Origin: Aureimonas fodinaquatilis
GTDB lineage: Bacteria; Pseudomonadota; Alphaproteobacteria; Rhizobiales; Rhizobiaceae
Assembly (NCBI RefSeq): GCF_008369445.1
Contig: NZ_VTWH01000002.1
Location: forward strand, 310,001-374,000
Direction of reading: 5' to 3'
Length of the DNA stretch: 64,000 nucleotides
Part shown: positions 3,914-19,039 of the stretch, one piece after another
How positions within the stretch are numbered: position 1 is the first letter of the stretch
Layout of the letters: the number at the start of each line of letters is the position of its first letter
Position numbers and translations under genes: made by a program
Notes under the pieces: model-generated
What the model was told of the DNA's origin: nothing
Database searches by the model: none
What the model saw: the letters and a program-made list of their open reading frames with translations, nothing else

Positions 3914-4089
3914 ATGAGCCTGTCAAAGGATACCGGTAACACGTGCGAATTCTTAAAGTTGGCAGTTGCCGAAGGTTGCAATGGGCACAACTTGTAGAAT
4001 GCGATCGCCAGAATCTTTACCGGGTGCTACGAACATTCCGAATTTGACGTTCCGGGCCACATTAGATTGGCTGCTAGTTGAAGACAGTG

Positions 4090-7000
4090 ATGATAGAAAC
4101 CCCATTTTACATGCCGCGAGAGTCATCCAGCCAATTAGCCAGGCTGATCAGCGACTTCGACTGGGCTTCTACCAGCCTGGGTGCGATTGACAGTTGGCCA
4201 TCCGCGGTTCGCTCCACCGTCGACATGATGCTTCGTTCCCCGATTCCGATTGTGACCTTGTGGGGCGAAGCCGGAGTTATGATCTACAATGATGCATATT
4301 CGATCTTTGCCGGATCGCGGCATCCTGACCTTTTAGGCAGTGATGTGCGCGAAGGCTGGCCGGAAGTTGCAGACTTTAATGACCACGTCATCAAGTCTGT
4401 ATTCCGGAATGGCGAGATTTTATCATTCAAAGACCAGGAACTTGTGCTCAACAGAGGCAATGGGCCCGCCTCTGGATGGATGAACCTGGACTATTCGCCA
4501 ATCGTTGACAGTGAAGGCCGGCCGCAGGGCGTGATTGCTTTTGTAGTGGAGACGACCGAGAAGGTTGTTGCCGACAAGCAATTGCGTGACGAGCGAGCTC
4601 GCCTGCAGCAAATGTATGAGCAGTCGCCTTCATTGATGGCGCTGCTGGAGGGGCCGCAACATTGCTTTGTATTTGCCAACCCGGCCTATCAACAGTTCAT
4701 TGGCCAACAGGATGTGATCGGTCGTACGGTTTCTGAAACTTTTGCTCAGAAGCATGACCTGGACTACCTGACGCTGTTGGACACTGTGTATACGACCGGT
4801 CAGACGCATCGGGAAAATGAAACGACCTATGAACTGCCGACGGATGTTGGCGTTCAGCGGCGCCATGTCGACTTCGTTTTTCAACCCATTACCGATGTCA
4901 GCGGAACCGTCACCGGTATTTTCATCAACGGGGTTGATGTTACCGAACGCATTGCCGCCCAGGAAGCCATCCGCGAACGCGAAGCGCAGTTTCAGACCTT
5001 TGCCGAGGTAATGCCGAACCACGTCTGGACATCGCGACCGGACGGAATGCTTGACTGGTTCAATGACCGGGTCAACTTGTATAGCGGGCTGACAAATGAG
5101 CAGCTTGCGGGCCAAGGTTGGGCCGGTATTGTTCACAAGGATGATCAGGACAATGCCAAACTGAAATGGCAGGCGGCGCTCAGTTCGGGGGCCCTGTACG
5201 AGACCGAGTTTCGCATCCGCCGCGCGGATGGCGAGTATCGGTGGCATCTGGTTCGCGCCTTGCCGATCAAAGACGATACGGGCTCTATTGGTCACTGGAT
5301 TGGAACCAATACCGACATCCACGATCAGAAACTGGCCGAAGCAGAGACGGTCGAGGATCGCAATCGTCTCTGGAAGCTCTCTCAGGAACTCATGCTGGTG
5401 TGTGATTACGCCGGCGTGATCACAGCGGTCAATCCGACGGCCGAGCGCCTTTTGGGTTGGAGCGAGCAGGAGATGGTCGGAAGAACACTGGCAGAGTTTC
5501 TGCACTCGGACGATCTGCAAAGCACGGCAGACGAAGTCCGCAAGCTCACGGCCGGCGAAGCCACTCTGGCGTTTCAGAACCGCTATCGACGCAAGGACGG
5601 GAGCTACTGCCTGCTGGATTGGACCGCCGTTCCGGATGGCGGTCGCATTCACGCCGTTGGCCGCGACATCACTGAAGAGCGACGGCTTGCCCGCGATCGC
5701 GAACGTATCTGGAATTTGTCTCCAGTGCTGAAGGTCATGGCAACGAACAAAGGTGGAATTGTTGCTGTAAATCCCGCCTGGACAGATATTCTGGGTTGGT
5801 CAGAGGCGGACACGCTTGGAAAGAGCATTTTTGAATTTCTCCCATCTGCACATCGCGAGCCGCTCAAAAACCAGCTCAAACAGTTGGTGGATGGTGCTGA
5901 AAGAACCTCACTTTCGGCAGTGGTTTTGACCAAAGACGGCGAAGAGCGCCACATTGACTGGACAGTCATCCGGGAAAACCAGACGATCTATGGCTTCGGG
6001 CGAGACATAACCAATGAGGAGCAGGCTGCAGCCGCACTGGCCATTAGCGAAGCAGCATTGCGACAGGCGCAGAAAATGGAAGCCATTGGTCAGCTTACCG
6101 GTGGCATTGCCCATGATTTTAACAATCTGCTGCAGGTTGTCGGCGGCAATCTTCAGCTACTGGCCAAAAATGTTGCCGGTGACGACAAGGCGCAGCGGCG
6201 CGTTCAGAACGCTATGGAGGGCGTTTCTCGCGGCGCACGCCTCGCCTCCCAACTGTTGGCTTTCGGTCGGCGGCAGCCGCTGGCTCCCAAAGCGGTCAAT
6301 CTCGGGCGGCTTATTCGCAGCATGGATGCCATGCTCCGCCATGCTCTGGGAGAAGCAATCGAGATCGAGACCATGGTTGCAGGTGGTCTCTGGAACACCC
6401 TGATCGATCCTAACAATCTTGAAAACGCGCTGCTCAATCTTGCCATCAACGCGCGTGACGCCATGGAGGGACATGGCAAGCTGACGATCGAGGCTGGAAA
6501 TGCATTTCTGGATGATCGTTATGTGCGAGATCATCCCGATGTCTCTGCCGGACAATATGTTTTGCTCGCTGTGACGGACACGGGTACGGGCATTGCTGCG
6601 TCGGCTCTGGAGCGAGTGTTCGACCCCTTCTATACCACCAAATCCGAAGGGAAAGGCAGTGGCCTTGGATTGTCCATGGTCTATGGCTTTGTCAAACAGT
6701 CCGGCGGGCATATCAAAATCTACAGTGAGCTCGGTGAAGGAACGACAGTCCGGCTTTATCTGCCAAGATCCACGCAGTCGGAAGACGACTTGGTAAGGCA
6801 TGACGCTGGACCTGTTACCGGCGGAACGGAGACTATTCTTGTTGCCGAGGATGATGAGGGTGTCCGCGAAACCGTCGTCGAGACATTGAGCGATCTTGGC
6901 TACAAGGTTCTTCAGGCGTCTGATGCTGCCGGAGCACTGGCAATCATTGAAAGCGGCATTCCTATTGATCTGCTTTTCACCGATGTTGTGATGCCAGGCC

Positions 7001-7602
7001 CCGTCAAGTCAACGGAACTGGCCCGCAAAGCCGTGCAGAGAATGCCGCGCCTGAGTGTCCTTTTCACCTCCGGATACACTGAAAACTCCATTGTGCACGC
7101 AGGACGGCTGGATGAAGGCGTCGAATTGCTGAGCAAGCCCTACACCCGGGAGGATCTGGCTCGCAAAATCCGGCATCAGCTTGCCAATGCTGCACAGCAT
7201 GGCACCGCAAGAAGCGTCGACCCGATCCAGACAGTACGCACAGATGAAATCCGGCCCTTCAGGATCCTGGTTTGCGAGGATGAGTCCCTGATCCGTATGT
7301 CCATCGTTGATATGCTGGAGGCTCAAGGTCATTTCGTTGTGGAAGCAGGCGATGCAGGCGCAGCTCTTGCACTGCTTGGCCAGCAGGAGGTTGACATTCT
7401 CATCACCGATGTTGGATTGCCTGACATGCCCGGCACGGAGCTGGCATCCCGGGCGCGCAACAACCGCCCGATGATGCCTGTCATCTTTGCAACTGGCTAC
7501 AGCCGCGTCGAAGGAGTTGTTGAAGATGACACGACACGCATTCTCAGCAAGCCGTTTGACTCGGTTTCGCTTAGCAATGTGCTGAGCCACTTCCAACGCT
7601 GA
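4090..7602 (+). CDS. five-PAS hybrid sensor histidine kinase with two receiver domains
   Basis: A soluble 1170-residue sensor kinase with no transmembrane segment, so it should sense a cytosolic or membrane-permeant signal. Domain order: five PAS-like units (about 30-160, 170-300, 305-425, 430-540, 545-655), HisKA with H-box GGIAHDFNNLL (H675), HATPase with the N box LLNLAINARDAM and the G boxes DTGTGI and GKGSGLGLSMV, then two receiver domains with phospho-acceptors D965 (LLFTDVVMP) and D1107 (ILITDVGLP). No output domain or cognate regulator gene is adjacent, so phosphorelay to a distant partner is likely. ATG 4090 was chosen (GAAG six bases upstream). An in-frame TTG at 4078 and a GTG at 4087 are alternatives. 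Confidence 0.92.
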   Translation: MIETPFYMPRESSSQLARLISDFDWASTSLGAIDSWPSAVRSTVDMMLRSPIPIVTLWGEAGVMIYNDAYSIFAGSRHPDLLGSDVREGWPEVADFNDHVIKSVFRNGEILSFKDQELVLNRGNGPASGWMNLDYSPIVDSEGRPQGVIAFVVETTEKVVADKQLRDERARLQQMYEQSPSLMALLEGPQHCFVFANPAYQQFIGQQDVIGRTVSETFAQKHDLDYLTLLDTVYTTGQTHRENETTYELPTDVGVQRRHVDFVFQPITDVSGTVTGIFINGVDVTERIAAQEAIREREAQFQTFAEVMPNHVWTSRPDGMLDWFNDRVNLYSGLTNEQLAGQGWAGIVHKDDQDNAKLKWQAALSSGALYETEFRIRRADGEYRWHLVRALPIKDDTGSIGHWIGTNTDIHDQKLAEAETVEDRNRLWKLSQELMLVCDYAGVITAVNPTAERLLGWSEQEMVGRTLAEFLHSDDLQSTADEVRKLTAGEATLAFQNRYRRKDGSYCLLDWTAVPDGGRIHAVGRDITEERRLARDRERIWNLSPVLKVMATNKGGIVAVNPAWTDILGWSEADTLGKSIFEFLPSAHREPLKNQLKQLVDGAERTSLSAVVLTKDGEERHIDWTVIRENQTIYGFGRDITNEEQAAAALAISEAALRQAQKMEAIGQLTGGIAHDFNNLLQVVGGNLQLLAKNVAGDDKAQRRVQNAMEGVSRGARLASQLLAFGRRQPLAPKAVNLGRLIRSMDAMLRHALGEAIEIETMVAGGLWNTLIDPNNLENALLNLAINARDAMEGHGKLTIEAGNAFLDDRYVRDHPDVSAGQYVLLAVTDTGTGIAASALERVFDPFYTTKSEGKGSGLGLSMVYGFVKQSGGHIKIYSELGEGTTVRLYLPRSTQSEDDLVRHDAGPVTGGTETILVAEDDEGVRETVVETLSDLGYKVLQASDAAGALAIIESGIPIDLLFTDVVMPGPVKSTELARKAVQRMPRLSVLFTSGYTENSIVHAGRLDEGVELLSKPYTREDLARKIRHQLANAAQHGTARSVDPIQTVRTDEIRPFRILVCEDESLIRMSIVDMLEAQGHFVVEAGDAGAALALLGQQEVDILITDVGLPDMPGTELASRARNNRPMMPVIFATGYSRVEGVVEDDTTRILSKPFDSVSLSNVLSHFQR

Positions 7603-9960: not shown

Positions 9961-11022
9961 TCAGTTTACCTTGGCCCGCAACGCCGTGGTCAGTTTTTGA
10001 CAGGCTTCCGACAGAGATGCGGCTACTTTTTTACGCTGGGAAAGACAGCGTTTCTCAAATCCATGCCAACAGGCATATCCAATGATTGTCGTGAGGATAA
10101 AGGACACTGTCATCGACAGCCAGAAATCTGGAATCAGTACGATTGCCGCTTGCTGTATGGGAAAGGCATAAATGTAGACCCCGTAGCTGGCATCTCCGTA
10201 TTTTGAAAAACCACTCGCCAACGGTGACAGACAAAGAATGAAAAACGGGATCCAGGCAAAAAACAAAATTGCGCTTTTTATTCCGGGCGCGAAAACTGCC
10301 AGCAGCGCAATTGCCACTATCGAGCCAACCGACGCGATCAACTTATGCGACGTAATCCTTTCCCAATAACAGGCAATCAGCGCACCGGCCAAGAAGTGAA
10401 ATCCTGTCTGTGCCAGAAACCCGACATGCAAATGGAAGGTCGCAATGCGGTAAGCGCGATCCATTGTCTGGAAAAAAGGCAGGGACGCTATCGCCAGAAT
10501 GCCGATCAACGCCGCTGCGAAAAGCCGCTTTGGCAGCAAGAACAGCCCGAAGATGACAATATACATGAAGAATTCATATTGAAGCGTCCACAGCGAGCCA
10601 TTCACCCCCCTGTCCGGGCGATCTGTAAACAGACCCTCTATCCAATAATATGGTGGCGCAATAAATGAAAATGCGTCTTTTCTGATGTAGTAGAGGTGCG
10701 AGTCCAGGTTCTCATAGTTGTTGAATATCACCATTAACGCCAGTGAGGTTGTGGCGACGGCCACAAACAGGTTTGGCACAATCCGCAATGTGCGCGAGGT
10801 GAAATAGAAGAAGAAATCCTGCGAGCGCACGAGCGAATTGTACATCAGAAAGCCACTGACAGCGAAAAACGCAAACACAGCGACCCGCCCTACCGACGCA
10901 TTCACCAAAGGGACGTCTGGCGCGGGAAATCCTGACAAGCTGTAATGATGAGAAACTAAAACGGCTGACGCCAGAAAAAAGCGGATAAAATCAAAGCTGT
11001 TATAGTGTCGAGTCTGTGCCAT
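9961..11022 (-). CDS. membrane acyltransferase, Acyl_transf_3/OafA family
   Basis: A 353-residue polytopic inner-membrane protein with about ten hydrophobic segments. The start FDFIRFFLASAVLVSHHYS is typical of acyltransferase family 3, with the paired histidines in the first helix region. Members transfer acetyl or other acyl groups to lipopolysaccharide, exopolysaccharide or secreted sugars. The polysaccharide locus ten kilobases downstream is a plausible but unproven user. The basic C-terminal tail (SQRKKVAASL) faces the cytoplasm in the family model. The gene is isolated, on the minus strand. Confidence 0.85.
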   Translation of the reverse strand: MAQTRHYNSFDFIRFFLASAVLVSHHYSLSGFPAPDVPLVNASVGRVAVFAFFAVSGFLMYNSLVRSQDFFFYFTSRTLRIVPNLFVAVATTSLALMVIFNNYENLDSHLYYIRKDAFSFIAPPYYWIEGLFTDRPDRGVNGSLWTLQYEFFMYIVIFGLFLLPKRLFAAALIGILAIASLPFFQTMDRAYRIATFHLHVGFLAQTGFHFLAGALIACYWERITSHKLIASVGSIVAIALLAVFAPGIKSAILFFAWIPFFILCLSPLASGFSKYGDASYGVYIYAFPIQQAAIVLIPDFWLSMTVSFILTTIIGYACWHGFEKRCLSQRKKVAASLSEACQKLTTALRAKVN

Positions 11023-11678: not shown

Positions 11679-12275
11679 TCAGCCATACTTCGCGCGCTCG
11701 GACCAGATATTCGGATGGCGCACTGCGTCATATGATATCCATTCGGCACTATCAGAAATTTGCTGCTGTTCACCGGTTTTTACATCGCTGATAGTGAGCG
11801 GACCAAGGCTCACACGCATAGTGTGAACATAGCCAGGCAATGTGCAGAATGCGCTGGCATCCACGTCCACGACGGCAGTTTTCCGATCGTAGAGTTTTTC
11901 CATCCAGGCAAATACGAGGAATCTGCCATCCTTCGTCCATGCAAAATGTGACCCCCAGGCAAAACCAGGAAACGGCTTGCCGGCAACCGTCAGCCTGCAA
12001 TAGGAATCGCCGAATGGCGGCTCGGTCACGTAGGTCAAAAGCGCCTGTGTCTGGCCGTCCGGTGCGATGATGCGATAGTCACCATAGCCGCAATAAACAC
12101 TTCCCCCATCGCTCGGGCATTGAACATTCTGGTATATGATTTCCGGTTGTACCAAAGCTTGAATCTCATCGTGGTGGGCAGGCAATAGCGGCGGCCGTGA
12201 ACATCCAGGCTGCCGCAGGTCGGTGCTATCTGCCAAATAAATCGTAAGAGAGTCATGACCATCAACGGTTTCCAC
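11679..12275 (-). CDS. uncharacterised protein
   Basis: A 198-residue product with no family I recognise. It contains several cysteines (CPSDGGSVYCGYGDY, DSYCRLTV, AFCTLPGY) and aromatic, strand-rich stretches such as AWTKDGRFLVFAWMEKLYD, which resemble beta-propeller-like repeats without being diagnostic. No signal peptide is obvious from this start. The GTG at 12275 was chosen because AGGAG lies nine bases upstream. The TTG at 12281 is closer than usual. It is divergent from the SecY-like gene with about 80 bases between, so they share a promoter region. Confidence 0.5.
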   Translation of the reverse strand: METVDGHDSLTIYLADSTDLRQPGCSRPPLLPAHHDEIQALVQPEIIYQNVQCPSDGGSVYCGYGDYRIIAPDGQTQALLTYVTEPPFGDSYCRLTVAGKPFPGFAWGSHFAWTKDGRFLVFAWMEKLYDRKTAVVDVDASAFCTLPGYVHTMRVSLGPLTISDVKTGEQQQISDSAEWISYDAVRHPNIWSERAKYG

Positions 12276-12355
12276 TTGCAAGCTCTCCTGTTACTCGAAG
12301 CGCTGGTAACAGCCGTGCATTACGTTCGGTCTGATGGGGTCTGCGAGGCTTGAAC

Positions 12356-13429
12356 ATGATATCTGCAACTGAGGCAAAAGCAGCCGTTCGTTGGAAATCA
12401 ATTCTTGCAGTCCTGATTGCCGGGGTGATCGTGCTGATCGGCCAACGCATCCCGTTGCCGGGCATCAGTGAAGATGCGCTGATGCAATTCAATAAGCAAT
12501 CTTCAGGCGGTCTGGAACGCTTGTCTATTCTGGCTTTAGGCATCCAGCCGCTTCTCTCTGCTTACCTCATCATTGAAATATGCAAGCTTGCGGTTCCAAA
12601 GCTTGGCAATTGGAGTCTGGCGACGCCAACGGGCAGACGCACGATGTTTATGCTGGTAACGTTGCTGGCACTGGTTTTCGCAGCACTCCAAGGCATTGGC
12701 ATCGCGCAATCCCTGACATCGCTTGGGCTCATTGCGAAAGACCCGCTTTCGCCAATGTTGGTGATTGCAACGCTCGTCGCTGGCATCGCTGTACTGGCGG
12801 CAATCGCAGACCGGATAAGCATACCCTTGCTTGTTTACGGAGGGTTCTGGCTGACACTTTCCATTTTCAGCCTTCATCGACTGTCATCGGACATCAGCGC
12901 CTATCTGGAATTGTTGCGCTCTGCCGCCATCCCCCTTGCAGATTTCCTGATACCTGTCGCAATCCTCGCAACCTGCTTCGTGTCGATCGTCTATCTTTCT
13001 GAAAGACTCGCACGTAGTGCAACGGTTGCTGGAGCAGATGTCTTTGCCTGGTCAATTGTTCTGGTTTGGCCCCCCTTTGTCGCTGGCAGCATTGCCGGGG
13101 CGCTTACATTGCTTGTTCAGATGTTCGACCTGACGCCCGAAACATCATGGCAGGTGGACGGATTTATGATCGTCCATACGCTCATTCTGATAGCGGTTCT
13201 TCCAGCGGTGCTGGTTCTCTATTCGGGGCTCGCAACGCGTCTGGACCCGCGAGCGGCACAATGGGCGGACAAAAAATCCGTGCTTGCGGGCTTGGCGGCG
13301 GGCCAACTGGTTGTGTGTTCCGTTATCACCATTGCCTCTGCTTATTGGGCAACGATGCTTTCAGGCGCCGAACTGATTGCGCTGGCCGTCGTGTTCTGGG
13401 CGCTCTTTCGCTCCGTCCGCCTGGTCTGA
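12356..13429 (+). CDS. SecY-like membrane protein, orphan paralog
   Basis: A 357-residue polytopic protein with about ten hydrophobic segments. Its N-terminal half matches SecY closely in order and motifs: RIPLPGI after the first helix, a short plug-like segment SSGGLERLS, then ILALGIQPLLSAYLIIEI, equivalent to the SecY stretch ending in ALGI-PYISASII. The C-terminal half is divergent. I cannot find the GNGISL motif or the large cytosolic loops that bind SecA and the ribosome, and the protein is about 80 residues shorter than SecY. No ribosomal genes, secA2 or accessory secretion genes are adjacent. Start: ATG 12356 with GAGG seven bases upstream. A TTG at 12350 is the alternative. Confidence 0.72.
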   Translation: MISATEAKAAVRWKSILAVLIAGVIVLIGQRIPLPGISEDALMQFNKQSSGGLERLSILALGIQPLLSAYLIIEICKLAVPKLGNWSLATPTGRRTMFMLVTLLALVFAALQGIGIAQSLTSLGLIAKDPLSPMLVIATLVAGIAVLAAIADRISIPLLVYGGFWLTLSIFSLHRLSSDISAYLELLRSAAIPLADFLIPVAILATCFVSIVYLSERLARSATVAGADVFAWSIVLVWPPFVAGSIAGALTLLVQMFDLTPETSWQVDGFMIVHTLILIAVLPAVLVLYSGLATRLDPRAAQWADKKSVLAGLAAGQLVVCSVITIASAYWATMLSGAELIALAVVFWALFRSVRLV

Positions 13430-13475: not shown

Positions 13476-14240
13476 TTATGCGCCAAGTGTCCCAACTCTC
13501 ATATTGATCGGCCAAAACATGGATCGTGTCGTTGCAGGGTCCCCCCAAAGGCTCGCCACGTCTTTCCCAAAAGCCAGGACGATATCTTCCCGGCCTGCAT
13601 TTCTGGCGTTTCGAACTGCCGACCATGTTGAAATATATCCAAGGAAGTCATTCAGGTTCCACGCCAGCCTGATGTCCATCCGCGGTGGCTGTGTCTCTTT
13701 GAATGGAAATTGCATATCGCGATAGCCGCTATCGACCAGACTGCGTTCTGGCGACCAATACGGCCCGGCCTCATCGTGATAAAACCGTCGGAACCGGTCC
13801 TGTAACTCTTCTCCGGGTTGCAGCACTCCGTAGCTGACAAGAGCCAAAGCCGCATCTTTGACGCCAATTCTGCTGACCTCTTTGTAAAAATGCGGAAGAT
13901 TGAACCAGTGAGCCGCTTGAGCGGCAACGATCAGACTGACACTGCGATCTTTCAGCGGCAGGTTTTCAGCACTGGCGCAAACATATTCAACATTCGGATG
14001 GGAAGGCGCACTGTCAAGCTGATCCGCGCTTGGATCACAGCCAATGACCCTGTCAAAATGCTGGGCCAAAAGAGTGGTGAGTTGACCGCTGCCACACCCG
14101 ACGTCAACCGCGCAGCTGCGCGAAGGCGCTGTATCGGCAAGGAATTCTGCCAACTGCGCAGGGTAATCCGGTCTGAAACGGGCGTAATCTTTTCCACCAC
14201 TTTCAAACCAGTTTTTCGGCGATCCCGGGTTGTTCGACAT
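13476..14240 (-). CDS. class I SAM-dependent methyltransferase
   Basis: A 254-residue cytosolic methyltransferase of the type-11 fold. Motif I is AVDVGCGSGQLTTLL (residues about 42-56), followed by the acidic residue in IGCDPSADQL and the post-motif VEYVCASAENLPL. The region SLIVAAQAAHWFNLPHFYKEVSRI is typical of small-molecule methyltransferases related to yeast Tmt1 and Rhizobiales homologs. The substrate is unknown. It is convergent with the SecY-like gene (46 bp apart) and divergent from the DUF1801 gene. Confidence 0.85.
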   Translation of the reverse strand: MSNNPGSPKNWFESGGKDYARFRPDYPAQLAEFLADTAPSRSCAVDVGCGSGQLTTLLAQHFDRVIGCDPSADQLDSAPSHPNVEYVCASAENLPLKDRSVSLIVAAQAAHWFNLPHFYKEVSRIGVKDAALALVSYGVLQPGEELQDRFRRFYHDEAGPYWSPERSLVDSGYRDMQFPFKETQPPRMDIRLAWNLNDFLGYISTWSAVRNARNAGREDIVLAFGKDVASLWGDPATTRSMFWPINMRVGTLGA

Positions 14241-16937: not shown

Positions 16938-17993
16938 TCAGGCAGGCATTGCCGCCGGAGAGCGCATCAACATTCCGAACAGATCGCGCGGATCATCGGG
17001 ATCAGCAATCAGATCCAGAAATTCCAGAGTTTCCGCTCCTACAGTCTTGTCGTAGACATAGCGAAGCGCCGAAAAATCCTCGATTGCAAAACCCACTGAA
17101 TCAAACAGGGTGATCTGGCGTTCACTGCTTCTTCCGGCAGCATGGCCGGCGATGACATCCCACAATTCAATCACGGGATGATCTTCTGCAAGTTGCTGAA
17201 TTTCACCTTCAATTCGGGTCTGCGGCGGAAATTCGACAAATATGTCGGACCGCAAAAGAATGTCGCTGTGTATTTCAGTCTTGCCCGGGCAATCGCCGCC
17301 AACCGCGTTGATGTGAACGCCGGGGCCAACCATATTGTCGCTCAGGATAGTGGCATATTGCTTGTCGGCGGTAGCGGTGGTGATGATGCCTGCGCCTTCC
17401 ACAGCCTCCGCCGCAGCGCTGCAGATTTCGATGGATGCAAATCCGTGCCGCGCGAGGTTCCTGGCACATTTTTGCGACGCCGCCGGATCAACGTCATACA
17501 GGCGAAGTTTATCAACTCCCAGCAACGCCTTGAATGCCAGAGCCTGAAATTCCGATTGCGCCCCATTGCCGATCAGCGCCATCGTGCTGTTGCCTTTGGG
17601 TGCAAGATATTTGCCCGCAACCGCTGACATGGCGGCTGTGCGAAGAGCCGTCAGCATGGTCATTTCCGAAAGCAGAACAGGATAGCCAGTGGCTACATCT
17701 GCCAAAAGGCCGAACGCCGTAACTGTCTGCAGGCCATCACGTGTGTTTTTCGGGTGGCCGTTGACATATTTGAAGCCGTAAAACCTGCCATCGCTGGTTG
17801 GCATCAGCTCGATGACACCATCCACGCTGTGCGAAGCAATGCGCGGCGTTTTGTCAAAGCTGTTCCAGCGCAGAAAATCTTCCTCAATATATTGAGCAAG
17901 TTCTACTAGGAATTGCTCGACACCAATCGAATGCACAAGCCGCATCATGCGGTCGACACTGATAAACGGCACTACATTCAATTGCTTGTCCAT
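16938..17993 (-). CDS. ocd: ornithine cyclodeaminase
   Basis: Converts L-ornithine to L-proline with release of ammonia, using bound NAD(H). The 351-residue protein has the family start region, the substrate-side stretch SEMTMLTALRTAAMSAVA, the Rossmann motif ALIGNGAQSEFQA and the catalytic region INAVGGDCPGKTE, whose Asp matches the catalytic D228 of characterised enzymes. GGDCPGKTE separates true ornithine cyclodeaminases from the broader mu-crystallin family. It abuts the arginase gene with no spacing, so arginine goes to ornithine and urea, then to proline. The Lrp/AsnC gene upstream of arginase is the likely regulator. Confidence 0.92.
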   Translation of the reverse strand: MDKQLNVVPFISVDRMMRLVHSIGVEQFLVELAQYIEEDFLRWNSFDKTPRIASHSVDGVIELMPTSDGRFYGFKYVNGHPKNTRDGLQTVTAFGLLADVATGYPVLLSEMTMLTALRTAAMSAVAGKYLAPKGNSTMALIGNGAQSEFQALAFKALLGVDKLRLYDVDPAASQKCARNLARHGFASIEICSAAAEAVEGAGIITTATADKQYATILSDNMVGPGVHINAVGGDCPGKTEIHSDILLRSDIFVEFPPQTRIEGEIQQLAEDHPVIELWDVIAGHAAGRSSERQITLFDSVGFAIEDFSALRYVYDKTVGAETLEFLDLIADPDDPRDLFGMLMRSPAAMPA

Positions 17994-18911
17994 TCAGGCT
18001 ACCCTCTTCTTGCCCGTTATTGTCTTGCCGAAAAGGCTGCTCACCAGTTCATTTGCAAGTGCGGCCGTGCGGCCATTCTCGTCCAGAGTGGGATTGAGTT
18101 CGACCACATCAAGGCTGGTGACCAGCCCGCTTTCATGAAGCATTTCCATCGCCAGATGCGCCTCGCGGAATGTGGCGCCGCCCTGGACAGGCGTGCCCAC
18201 ACCCGGAACCAGCGACGGGTCCAGAAAATCAATGTCGAAAGACACGTGCAGCAAGCCGTCTGCATCCCGCACTTCCTGAAGAAAAGACTCCAGCAAAGGT
18301 GCGACGCCACGGCGGTCAATGTCGCTCATATCATATGCGCGAAACTGCGATGCCGCCAAAGCATCCTTTTCAGCCTTGTCGACACTGCGCAAACCCAGAA
18401 TGCACACATGCTCCTGAACCAGCGGAGCGGCAAGCGGCGGAAAATAGCCGTCAAATCCTGGCATGCCCGCCAGATAAGCCAGAGGGACACCATGCAGATT
18501 TCCGCTTGTGGTCGTATTCAGCGTATGCAGGTCAGAATGGGCATCCATCCAGAGAACGAAGAACGGTTTTCCCTGCTCTGCAGCGCGGCGCGCCAGACCC
18601 GAGACCGAGCCGGCTGAAATACTGTGATCGCCCCCCAGAAAAATCGGCAGACCATCGGCACTGGCCTCATAGGCCTTGGCCGCAATAGCCTCAATCCATG
18701 CGCTGACTTCCCGCAGATGTTTCAGCCGGTTCGGATGATCTGGCACCGCTCTTGGTTCTGGTGCCGGTATCGCACCAAGATCATCCACATCATGGCCAAG
18801 ATCTTGCAGCGCTTCACCCAGACCCGCGTTTTTCAACGCTTCCGGTCCAAGAGCACACCCCGCAACCGGCTGCCCCAACTCAAACGGTACCGAAATCAAT
18901 TTGCAGCTCAT
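17994..18911 (-). CDS. rocF: arginase
   Basis: Hydrolyses L-arginine to L-ornithine and urea at a binuclear manganese site. The 305-residue protein carries all three metal motifs: [20 protein letters not shown] with SGNLHG, and [14 protein letters not shown]. The C-terminal [17 protein letters not shown] is also conserved. The ATG at 18911 was chosen (AGGA eight bases upstream, [14 protein letters not shown] is the family start). It is the first gene of a two-gene operon with ornithine cyclodeaminase, whose start codon follows the arginase stop directly. A palindrome and an Lrp-type gene lie upstream. Confidence 0.93.
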
Positions 18912-18972
18912 TTTACTTTCCTGGTCATTTCTGCACTCAGGAAATGCGATTTTGCTGGCACATGGAAGCAGC

Positions 18973-18988
18973 CATATTGCCCAATATG
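18973..18988. promoter_or_regulatory. operator between arginase operon and Lrp-type regulator
   Basis: CATATTG-CC-CAATATG is a perfect seven-base inverted repeat. Two further half-sites, CAATATG at 19003-19009 and CATATTG at 19069-19075 (inside the regulator gene), recur nearby. Multiple spaced sites suit an Lrp/AsnC octamer that wraps DNA. Confidence 0.7.
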
Positions 18989-19039
18989 CGCTCATCACTT
19001 ACCAATATGGCAAATGCATTTGTTCAAACTGGATAATAA

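Follow-up and report, generated by a model that had tools for sequence, protein, structure and literature searches.

SecY occurs almost universally and changes slowly. In the canonical protein, the cytosolic loops C4 and C5 (the latter with Arg357) are the surfaces on which SecA and the ribosome dock. Its known paralogs, SecY2 and Ssh1, are believed to retain their contacts with the motor or the ribosome, and the Gram-positive SecY2 is encoded outside the ribosomal operon. The plug of E. coli SecY has its limits at residues 60-74, and a plugless mutant has been engineered in which these residues were replaced by GSGS, according to the available text of PMC4148884. YidC, of the YidC/Oxa1 insertases, resembles one SecY half, as described in the accessible part of PMC8675477.

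The window is a 64,000-nucleotide stretch of the 3.93-Mb Aureimonas fodinaquatilis genome (C2:310001-374000), and it encodes a SecY-like (SYL) protein that has neither a plug helix nor the long cytosolic docking loops. The features compared below are, in window coordinates:

11679-12281, - strand: divergent ORF on the left, matching no Pfam model
12345..12348, + strand: GAGG, read from the sequence as a plausible ribosome-binding site, 7 bases 5' of the ATG
12356..13429, + strand: SYL gene, a single ORF of 357 amino acids (ATG at 12356, stop at 13427-13429)
12449..12523, + strand: segment from TM1 to TM2b (residues 32-56), its plug helix region (E. coli 58-74) cut from 17 to 7 residues
12524..12592, + strand: TM2b (residues 57-79), the best conserved family segment, where Glu74 and Lys77 replace E. 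coli Gln93 and Thr96
12842..12850, + strand: remnant of GNGISL at the start of TM5 (residues 163-165, G-F-W)
13013..13054, + strand: TM6-TM7 cytosolic loop C4 (residues 220-233), shortened to 24 residues from the 38 of E. coli 234-271
13067..13075, + strand: W-P-P of TM7 (residues 238-240), with Trp238 in 27/27 non-redundant sequences where canonical SecY has Ile275
13229..13276, + strand: TM8-TM9 cytosolic loop C5 (residues 292-307), shortened to 16 residues from the 36 of E. coli 335-370, the Arg357 motif being absent
13476-14240, - strand: convergent methyltransferase on the right (Pfam)

A TTG at 12350 offers an alternative start. With the divergent ORF on one side and the convergent methyltransferase on the other, the SYL gene stands alone; its contig also carries the housekeeping secY, at a distance of about 650 kb. 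This agrees with the first-pass annotation of this DNA, which had described a lone gene outside the ribosomal operon. The gene shows no foreign base composition that would hint at a recent arrival: the GC content of the gene matches its surroundings both in the window (0.546 vs. 0.547) and across 26 SYL loci (mean difference -0.006, with the gene below its surroundings in 15 of 26).

The relationship to SecY, proposed by the same annotation from an N-terminal half that keeps SecY landmarks in order, is borne out by profiles and by the predicted fold. RIPLPGI (residues 31-37) and ALGIQPLLSAYLI (residues 60-72) are both where they had been read. The window protein passes the Pfam SecY model PF00344 (37.6 bits, cut-off 32.2), which 13 of 18 SYL members match at E <= 1e-3 and five do not. 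It matches the SecY of its own genome at 4.5e-11 and a solved SecY at 4.3e-12, while a search with the SYL family profile recovers E. coli SecY (7.8e-33), including a second, weak match that spans TM9-10. An AlphaFold2 model (pLDDT 81, pTM 0.79), based on 8 sequences and possibly influenced by SecY structures known to AlphaFold2 from its training, predicts ten transmembrane helices in two SecY halves. As a correction to the annotation, the C-terminal half is also SecY; it is poorly visible in the single sequence but visible in the profiles and the model. Residues 8-357 of the model match the SecY/Sec61 fold in Foldseek, where the titles of rows 1-45 all name SecY, Sec61 or a translocon and the probability is down to 0.10 at the first unrelated row, so the model neither lacks one of the two halves nor fits another family better, the two outcomes that the annotation had named as speaking against itself. 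Another transporter family is ruled out by the fold search together with the profile matches, and a COX1 Pfam match of the window protein is too weak (15.5 bits, cut-off 34.8). The listed fold-search matches hold no YidC chain, an absence from a list that excludes nothing.

Within the superfamily, SYL falls short of the housekeeping SecY equivalog TIGR00967 (48.5 bits, cut-off 253.6) and far short of two SecY2 models (26.8 bits, cut-off 353; 23.7 bits, cut-off 249.6); by these cut-offs it is neither housekeeping SecY nor SecY2. No paper describing the family was recognised in the open-access literature under a limited set of search terms, and two annotated plasmid records label the gene "hypothetical protein." As far as literature searches can tell, SYL is an undescribed subfamily of a known superfamily.

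The losses were measured on 34 intact ORFs of 344-429 amino acids (the window's own and the doubtful L149 included, the truncated L034 and two tandem copies left out) against 68 canonical SecY, of which 22 were assigned by a length of >= 435 amino acids and do not have the exact IRPGE string. The plug segment (E. coli 58-74) comprises 7-8 residues in 34/34 family sequences and has a median of 17 in the canonical set; the plug-like short segment of the first-pass annotation exists, but it marks the deletion of the plug, a loss of some 10-12 residues. Since a replacement plug can form in plugless SecY, according to the available text of PMC4148884, a short helix predicted at residues 39-48 of the model could serve as one. 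Median lengths in the family vs. the canonical set are 15 vs. 36 for C5, 24 vs. 38 for C4, and 12.5 vs. 26 for the C-tail, and Arg357 is gapped in 34/34 family sequences and present in 68/68 canonical ones, as expected from the earlier reading that the SecA- and ribosome-contacting loops are missing. The E. coli reference SecY is the copy at locus L155 (NZ_OL790696.1), a 4.8-Mb record that is filed as an E. coli plasmid, carries the housekeeping secY, and looks like a whole chromosome.

SYL shares with housekeeping SecY the ten-helix, two-half fold, the hydrophobic pore ring, and several motifs and residues: PxPG after TM1, A-L-G...P in TM2b, Gly186 before TM5, Gln131 and Gly134 in TM3, Pro276 in TM7, and Tyr332 in TM8. 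Unlike housekeeping SecY, it has no plug helix and no Arg357, its C4, C5, and C-tail are shortened, its branches are much longer, it is a lone accessory gene, and it has residues of its own. Among 27 non-redundant sequences (33 family sequences minus rows of >= 80% identity, L149 being left out), these are Glu74 in 23 (SecY Gln93), Lys or Arg77 in 25 (Thr96), Trp165 in 24 (Ser188), and the invariant Trp238, in window numbering, and SecY residues are kept at Gln112 (26/27), Tyr289 (24/27), and Pro65 (26/27). The GNGISL motif, which the first pass had listed as missing, is indeed changed, yet degenerate and not lost: the window protein reads G162-G163-F164-W165, Gly is found in 26/27 and Trp for Ser in 24/27, and a few relatives keep G-N-G. 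Mean pairwise identity is 0.46 in TM2b, with C4 (0.12) and C5 (0.11) among the lowest segments. TM4 and TM5 equal TM7 and TM8 in conservation (1.70-1.74 bits each) and TM2b alone is clearly higher (2.16), so conservation does not single out the gate helices as a set.

For the pore ring, we take sites 82 and 187 to be ring positions; residue 187 of E. coli SecY, used here as a ring site, is Ile, and residue 282 is Ser. Sites 86, 191, and 278 are named in the available text of PMC4148884, and site 408 is named as a prlA4 site in PMC7530735. The corresponding window residues (I63, L67, F164, L168, F241, A342) are hydrophobic in 24, 34, 34, 34, 34, and 32 of the 34 family sequences; the pore ring that the annotation had suggested looking for is mostly hydrophobic. 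Site 82 is Thr in 9/34, which counts against a fully sealed pore. At least one ring aromatic is present in 23/27 family sequences and in 0/68 canonical ones, at nearly equal total side-chain volume (984 vs. 994 cubic angstrom), which speaks for a sealed pore.

The family was found in the Hyphomicrobiales, where it is accessory and patchy. Genome counts are lower bounds, since the most divergent relatives may score below their own housekeeping SecY or the E-value limit: at least 2 of 21 genomes in the genus sample, at least 18 of 394 Rhizobiaceae, and at least 13 of 397 in the order sample, at least 10 of these outside Rhizobiaceae in three families. In the class sample (385 genomes), the window's genome alone appeared at the search threshold, again a lower bound. 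One Rhizobiaceae copy is truncated (G218:C29:2035-2712, at L034 and L069): it has a 232-residue open frame, and the portion corresponding to profile positions 131-357 is all that stays open. One further genome of the order sample (G575) is doubtful: its locus L149 (8432-9508) encodes a 358-amino-acid SecY lacking the plug and the C5 loop, scores higher than SYL on PF00344 (102.3 bits), and branches between the SYL family and SecY, with unsure placement. Named carriers are the genus mate Aureimonas sp. ME7 (NZ_CAJCKW010000005.1), Brucella pecoris, B. daejeonensis, Aliihoeflea aestuarii, Shinella sumterensis, and two MAGs. Among the 20 of 29 matches listed from a plasmid collection, five span 67-73% of the query; they come from Sinorhizobium sp. 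RAC02 and from Shinella. A peptide-pattern scan of genome contigs, with patterns from the window protein alone, gave no match. Carriage by phages was rejected, since six records of a phage collection match only 31-32% of the query (four at an annotated secY, two unannotated) and viral contigs, scanned with a single peptide pattern, gave no SYL relative.

The SYL family is fast-evolving and under purifying selection. In ten close pairs, which overlap, dN/dS (Nei-Gojobori) is 0.15-0.75, in all cases below 1, with dS saturated above about 1; on these values, the intact ORFs, and the conserved family residues, a sequencing artefact or pseudogene was rejected. Divergence at fixed loci can be strong, as seen with gene calls that come, at neighbour loci, from a simple ORF script. 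Between L139 and L140, SYL is 35% identical with a dS of 1.74, whereas the 13 other gene pairs around it are 57-100% identical (12 at >= 84%) with a dS of 0.20-0.55. This excess of dS points to replacement in place by a distant allele, or to very old alleles, and not only to fast amino-acid change. The same syntenic block holds a second fast gene (10050-10678, 57% identity, dN/dS 0.69). In four genomes of one family (L145-L148), SYL lies inside a conserved purine neighbourhood with purC in four and purB in three (named by Pfam in L145, by similarity in L146-L148); in three pairs SYL is 36-41% identical, compared with 92-97% for purC, and some other neighbours are also fast (44-56%). SYL is no outlier in L141-L143 (85%, neighbours 89-96%), and in L064-L066 it is 67% identical, with one neighbour at 55%.

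The host genome has one SecE and one SecA above the cut-off, plus a 21.5-bit match below it, and accessory Sec genes do not occur among the scanned neighbours; the earlier statement that secA2 and accessory secretion genes are lacking holds. No partner gene recurs at SYL loci beyond close relatives. A shared operon partner was likewise rejected, the neighbours including LysE, MFS, ABC, phage portal, integrase, purine, and methyltransferase genes, and so was an anti-phage defence family, as PADLOC gave no match in 18 SYL members. The window encodes a hybrid histidine kinase of 1174 amino acids with several PAS domains and a receiver domain (4078-7602), and an arginase adjoining an ornithine cyclodeaminase (16938-18998); relatives of the latter adjoin SYL in L141 and L143, and LysE exporters do so in L060 and L065. 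In L064 and L066 (7080-9523), SYL closely follows a phage portal gene (identified by Pfam in L064, by similarity in L066) but is encoded on the other strand; the syntenic block that holds them is perhaps a gene-transfer-agent or prophage cluster.

Four genomes (G545, G765, G1173, and G1186) carry a second SecY of 402-417 amino acids directly behind secY in the ribosomal spc operon (L150 5970-8509; L151 6545-9081; L176; L177), preceding adk in L150 (by Pfam) and L151 (by similarity). Such copies were found in 3 of 80 genomes in one search, the query's own included, plus G765. Like SYL, these tandem copies are SecY paralogs that have lost the C5 Arg, reading V[AE]PGE where SecY has IRPGE; unlike SYL, they have C4/C5 loops. 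The plug is lost in two of the four, kept in G1173, and a degenerate segment in G1186. Together, V[AE]PGE and the variable plug suggest from sequence that Arg357 was lost first, the plug next, and the loops last. In a 43-row tree (17 of 34 SYL sequences, a random draw of canonical ones), SYL and the four tandem copies are separated from canonical SecY at 95/97. A 70-row tree, which sampled 33 of the 68 canonical sequences and included E. coli, has a branch at 100/100 with 33/34 SYL sequences as one side, and another at 99/96 with the canonical and E. coli sequences as one side. These data are compatible with a descent of SYL from a tandem secY duplicate, although the tree programme flagged both trees for long branches that meet, which could create the grouping.

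As sites for a motor or the ribosome are missing and the ring is mostly hydrophobic, what SYL most likely still does would take place laterally, at the gate, as in YidC. We tentatively favour SYL as a motor-free lateral-gate insertase or intramembrane chaperone, YidC-like in mode although that proposed mode, motor-free lateral insertion, is all that the two would share, SYL having two SecY halves. SYL would work in the membrane apart from any motor, perhaps still held by the cell's single SecE. Its clients would be few, or just one: membrane proteins that are small or change rapidly, with transmembrane segments that would go in through a lateral gate of the SecY type (TM2b/3/7/8). With residues placed solely by alignment to E. 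coli SecY, this gate would carry the family-specific Glu74, Lys/Arg77, and Trp238 beside the retained Gln112 and Tyr289; as there is no plug, the route would be closed by the hydrophobic, often aromatic, pore ring. The SecY fold of both halves, the loss of plug and Arg357, the mostly hydrophobic ring with its aromatics at equal volume, the high conservation of TM2b beside poorly conserved C4 and C5 loops, the family-specific residues, and dN/dS below 1 argue for such an insertase. The lack of a neighbour conserved beyond close relatives, gate helices that do not stand out, and Thr at site 82 argue against it, and fast divergence, not obviously needed by an insertase of a fixed client, also counts against it.

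A fuller version, which we consider doubtful, holds that SYL is a natural plugless, motor-free SecY whose lateral gate alone inserts or chaperones, which arose from a tandem secY, lost the C5 Arg, then the plug, then the loops, and diversifies because its clients or attackers change fast. If true, SYL would be a living counterpart of a plugless proto-SecY, which has been called plausible as the translocon ancestor.

Alternatively, SYL could be a channel for small solutes or anions, in which the natural lack of a plug gives a SecY with a regulated leak of chloride or similar anions. The plug region is short in all 34 sequences, and the SYL deletion covers much of the segment absent from the engineered plugless SecY, for which the available text of PMC4148884 gives a Cl over K permeability ratio of about 3.7; that protein, in contrast to SYL, was made in the laboratory from E. 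coli SecY and keeps the SecA and ribosome loops and the isoleucine ring. Growth of Methylobacterium extorquens on dichloromethane was helped by secY mutations where plug and pore meet, for which a chloride leak is predicted, as reported in the accessible part of PMC4271186. Yet the SYL ring is mostly hydrophobic, with aromatics gained at equal volume, the engineered channels still close with voltage (PMC4148884, available text), and no ion-channel gene recurs among the scanned neighbours, which makes a channel unlikely.

An improbable reading, in our judgement, is that of a decoy, immunity factor, or regulator acting toward the housekeeping translocon or toxins entering through it. SecY is the reported entry route of two contact-dependent growth inhibition toxins, and S281F in TM7 protected cells against one of them, according to the available text of PMC7858069. 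SYL itself is patchy, accessory, and strongly divergent at fixed loci. On Sinorhizobium and Shinella plasmids it lies near DKNYY, YcxB, and DUF3396 genes, which we take to be possibly immunity-like. At L071, a tyrosine-phosphatase-like neighbour (10037-10603), which is also conserved at L072 and at L073, is marginally above the cut-off of a polymorphic-toxin phosphatase model (27.4 vs. 27 bits), but it scores higher as PTP-NADK or ordinary PTP (44.8 bits). Moreover, no clear CDI or T6SS gene is found among the Pfam-scanned neighbours, PADLOC is silent, and the best conserved part, TM2b, lies inside the membrane.

That SYL is a minimal SecY2-like export channel for a specific substrate, driven by the ordinary SecA, is quite unlikely: its location outside the ribosomal operon is shared with SecY2 and there are weak SecY2-model matches, but the cut-offs are missed by far, no second SecA passes, accessory Sec genes are lacking among the scanned neighbours, the C5 loop with Arg357 is gone, and no recurring large cargo gene was seen. 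A decaying, functionless duplicate, for which one could cite the fast divergence, the very patchy distribution, dN/dS values that reach 0.75 in the closest pairs, and one truncated copy among at least 18 in Rhizobiaceae (G218), is hardly credible given 34 intact ORFs, dN/dS below 1 in 10/10 pairs, and Trp238 in 27/27.

The strong divergence of SYL at fixed loci raises the question of a driving partner or attacker. As 27 non-redundant proteins that have neither plug nor docking loops, with a modelled member keeping the fold, the family provides a natural series on the roles of the plug, the loops, and the lateral gate. SYL would also test the YidC-like working of a SecY, in line with the hypothesis of a common origin of SecY and YidC set out in the accessible part of PMC8675477.
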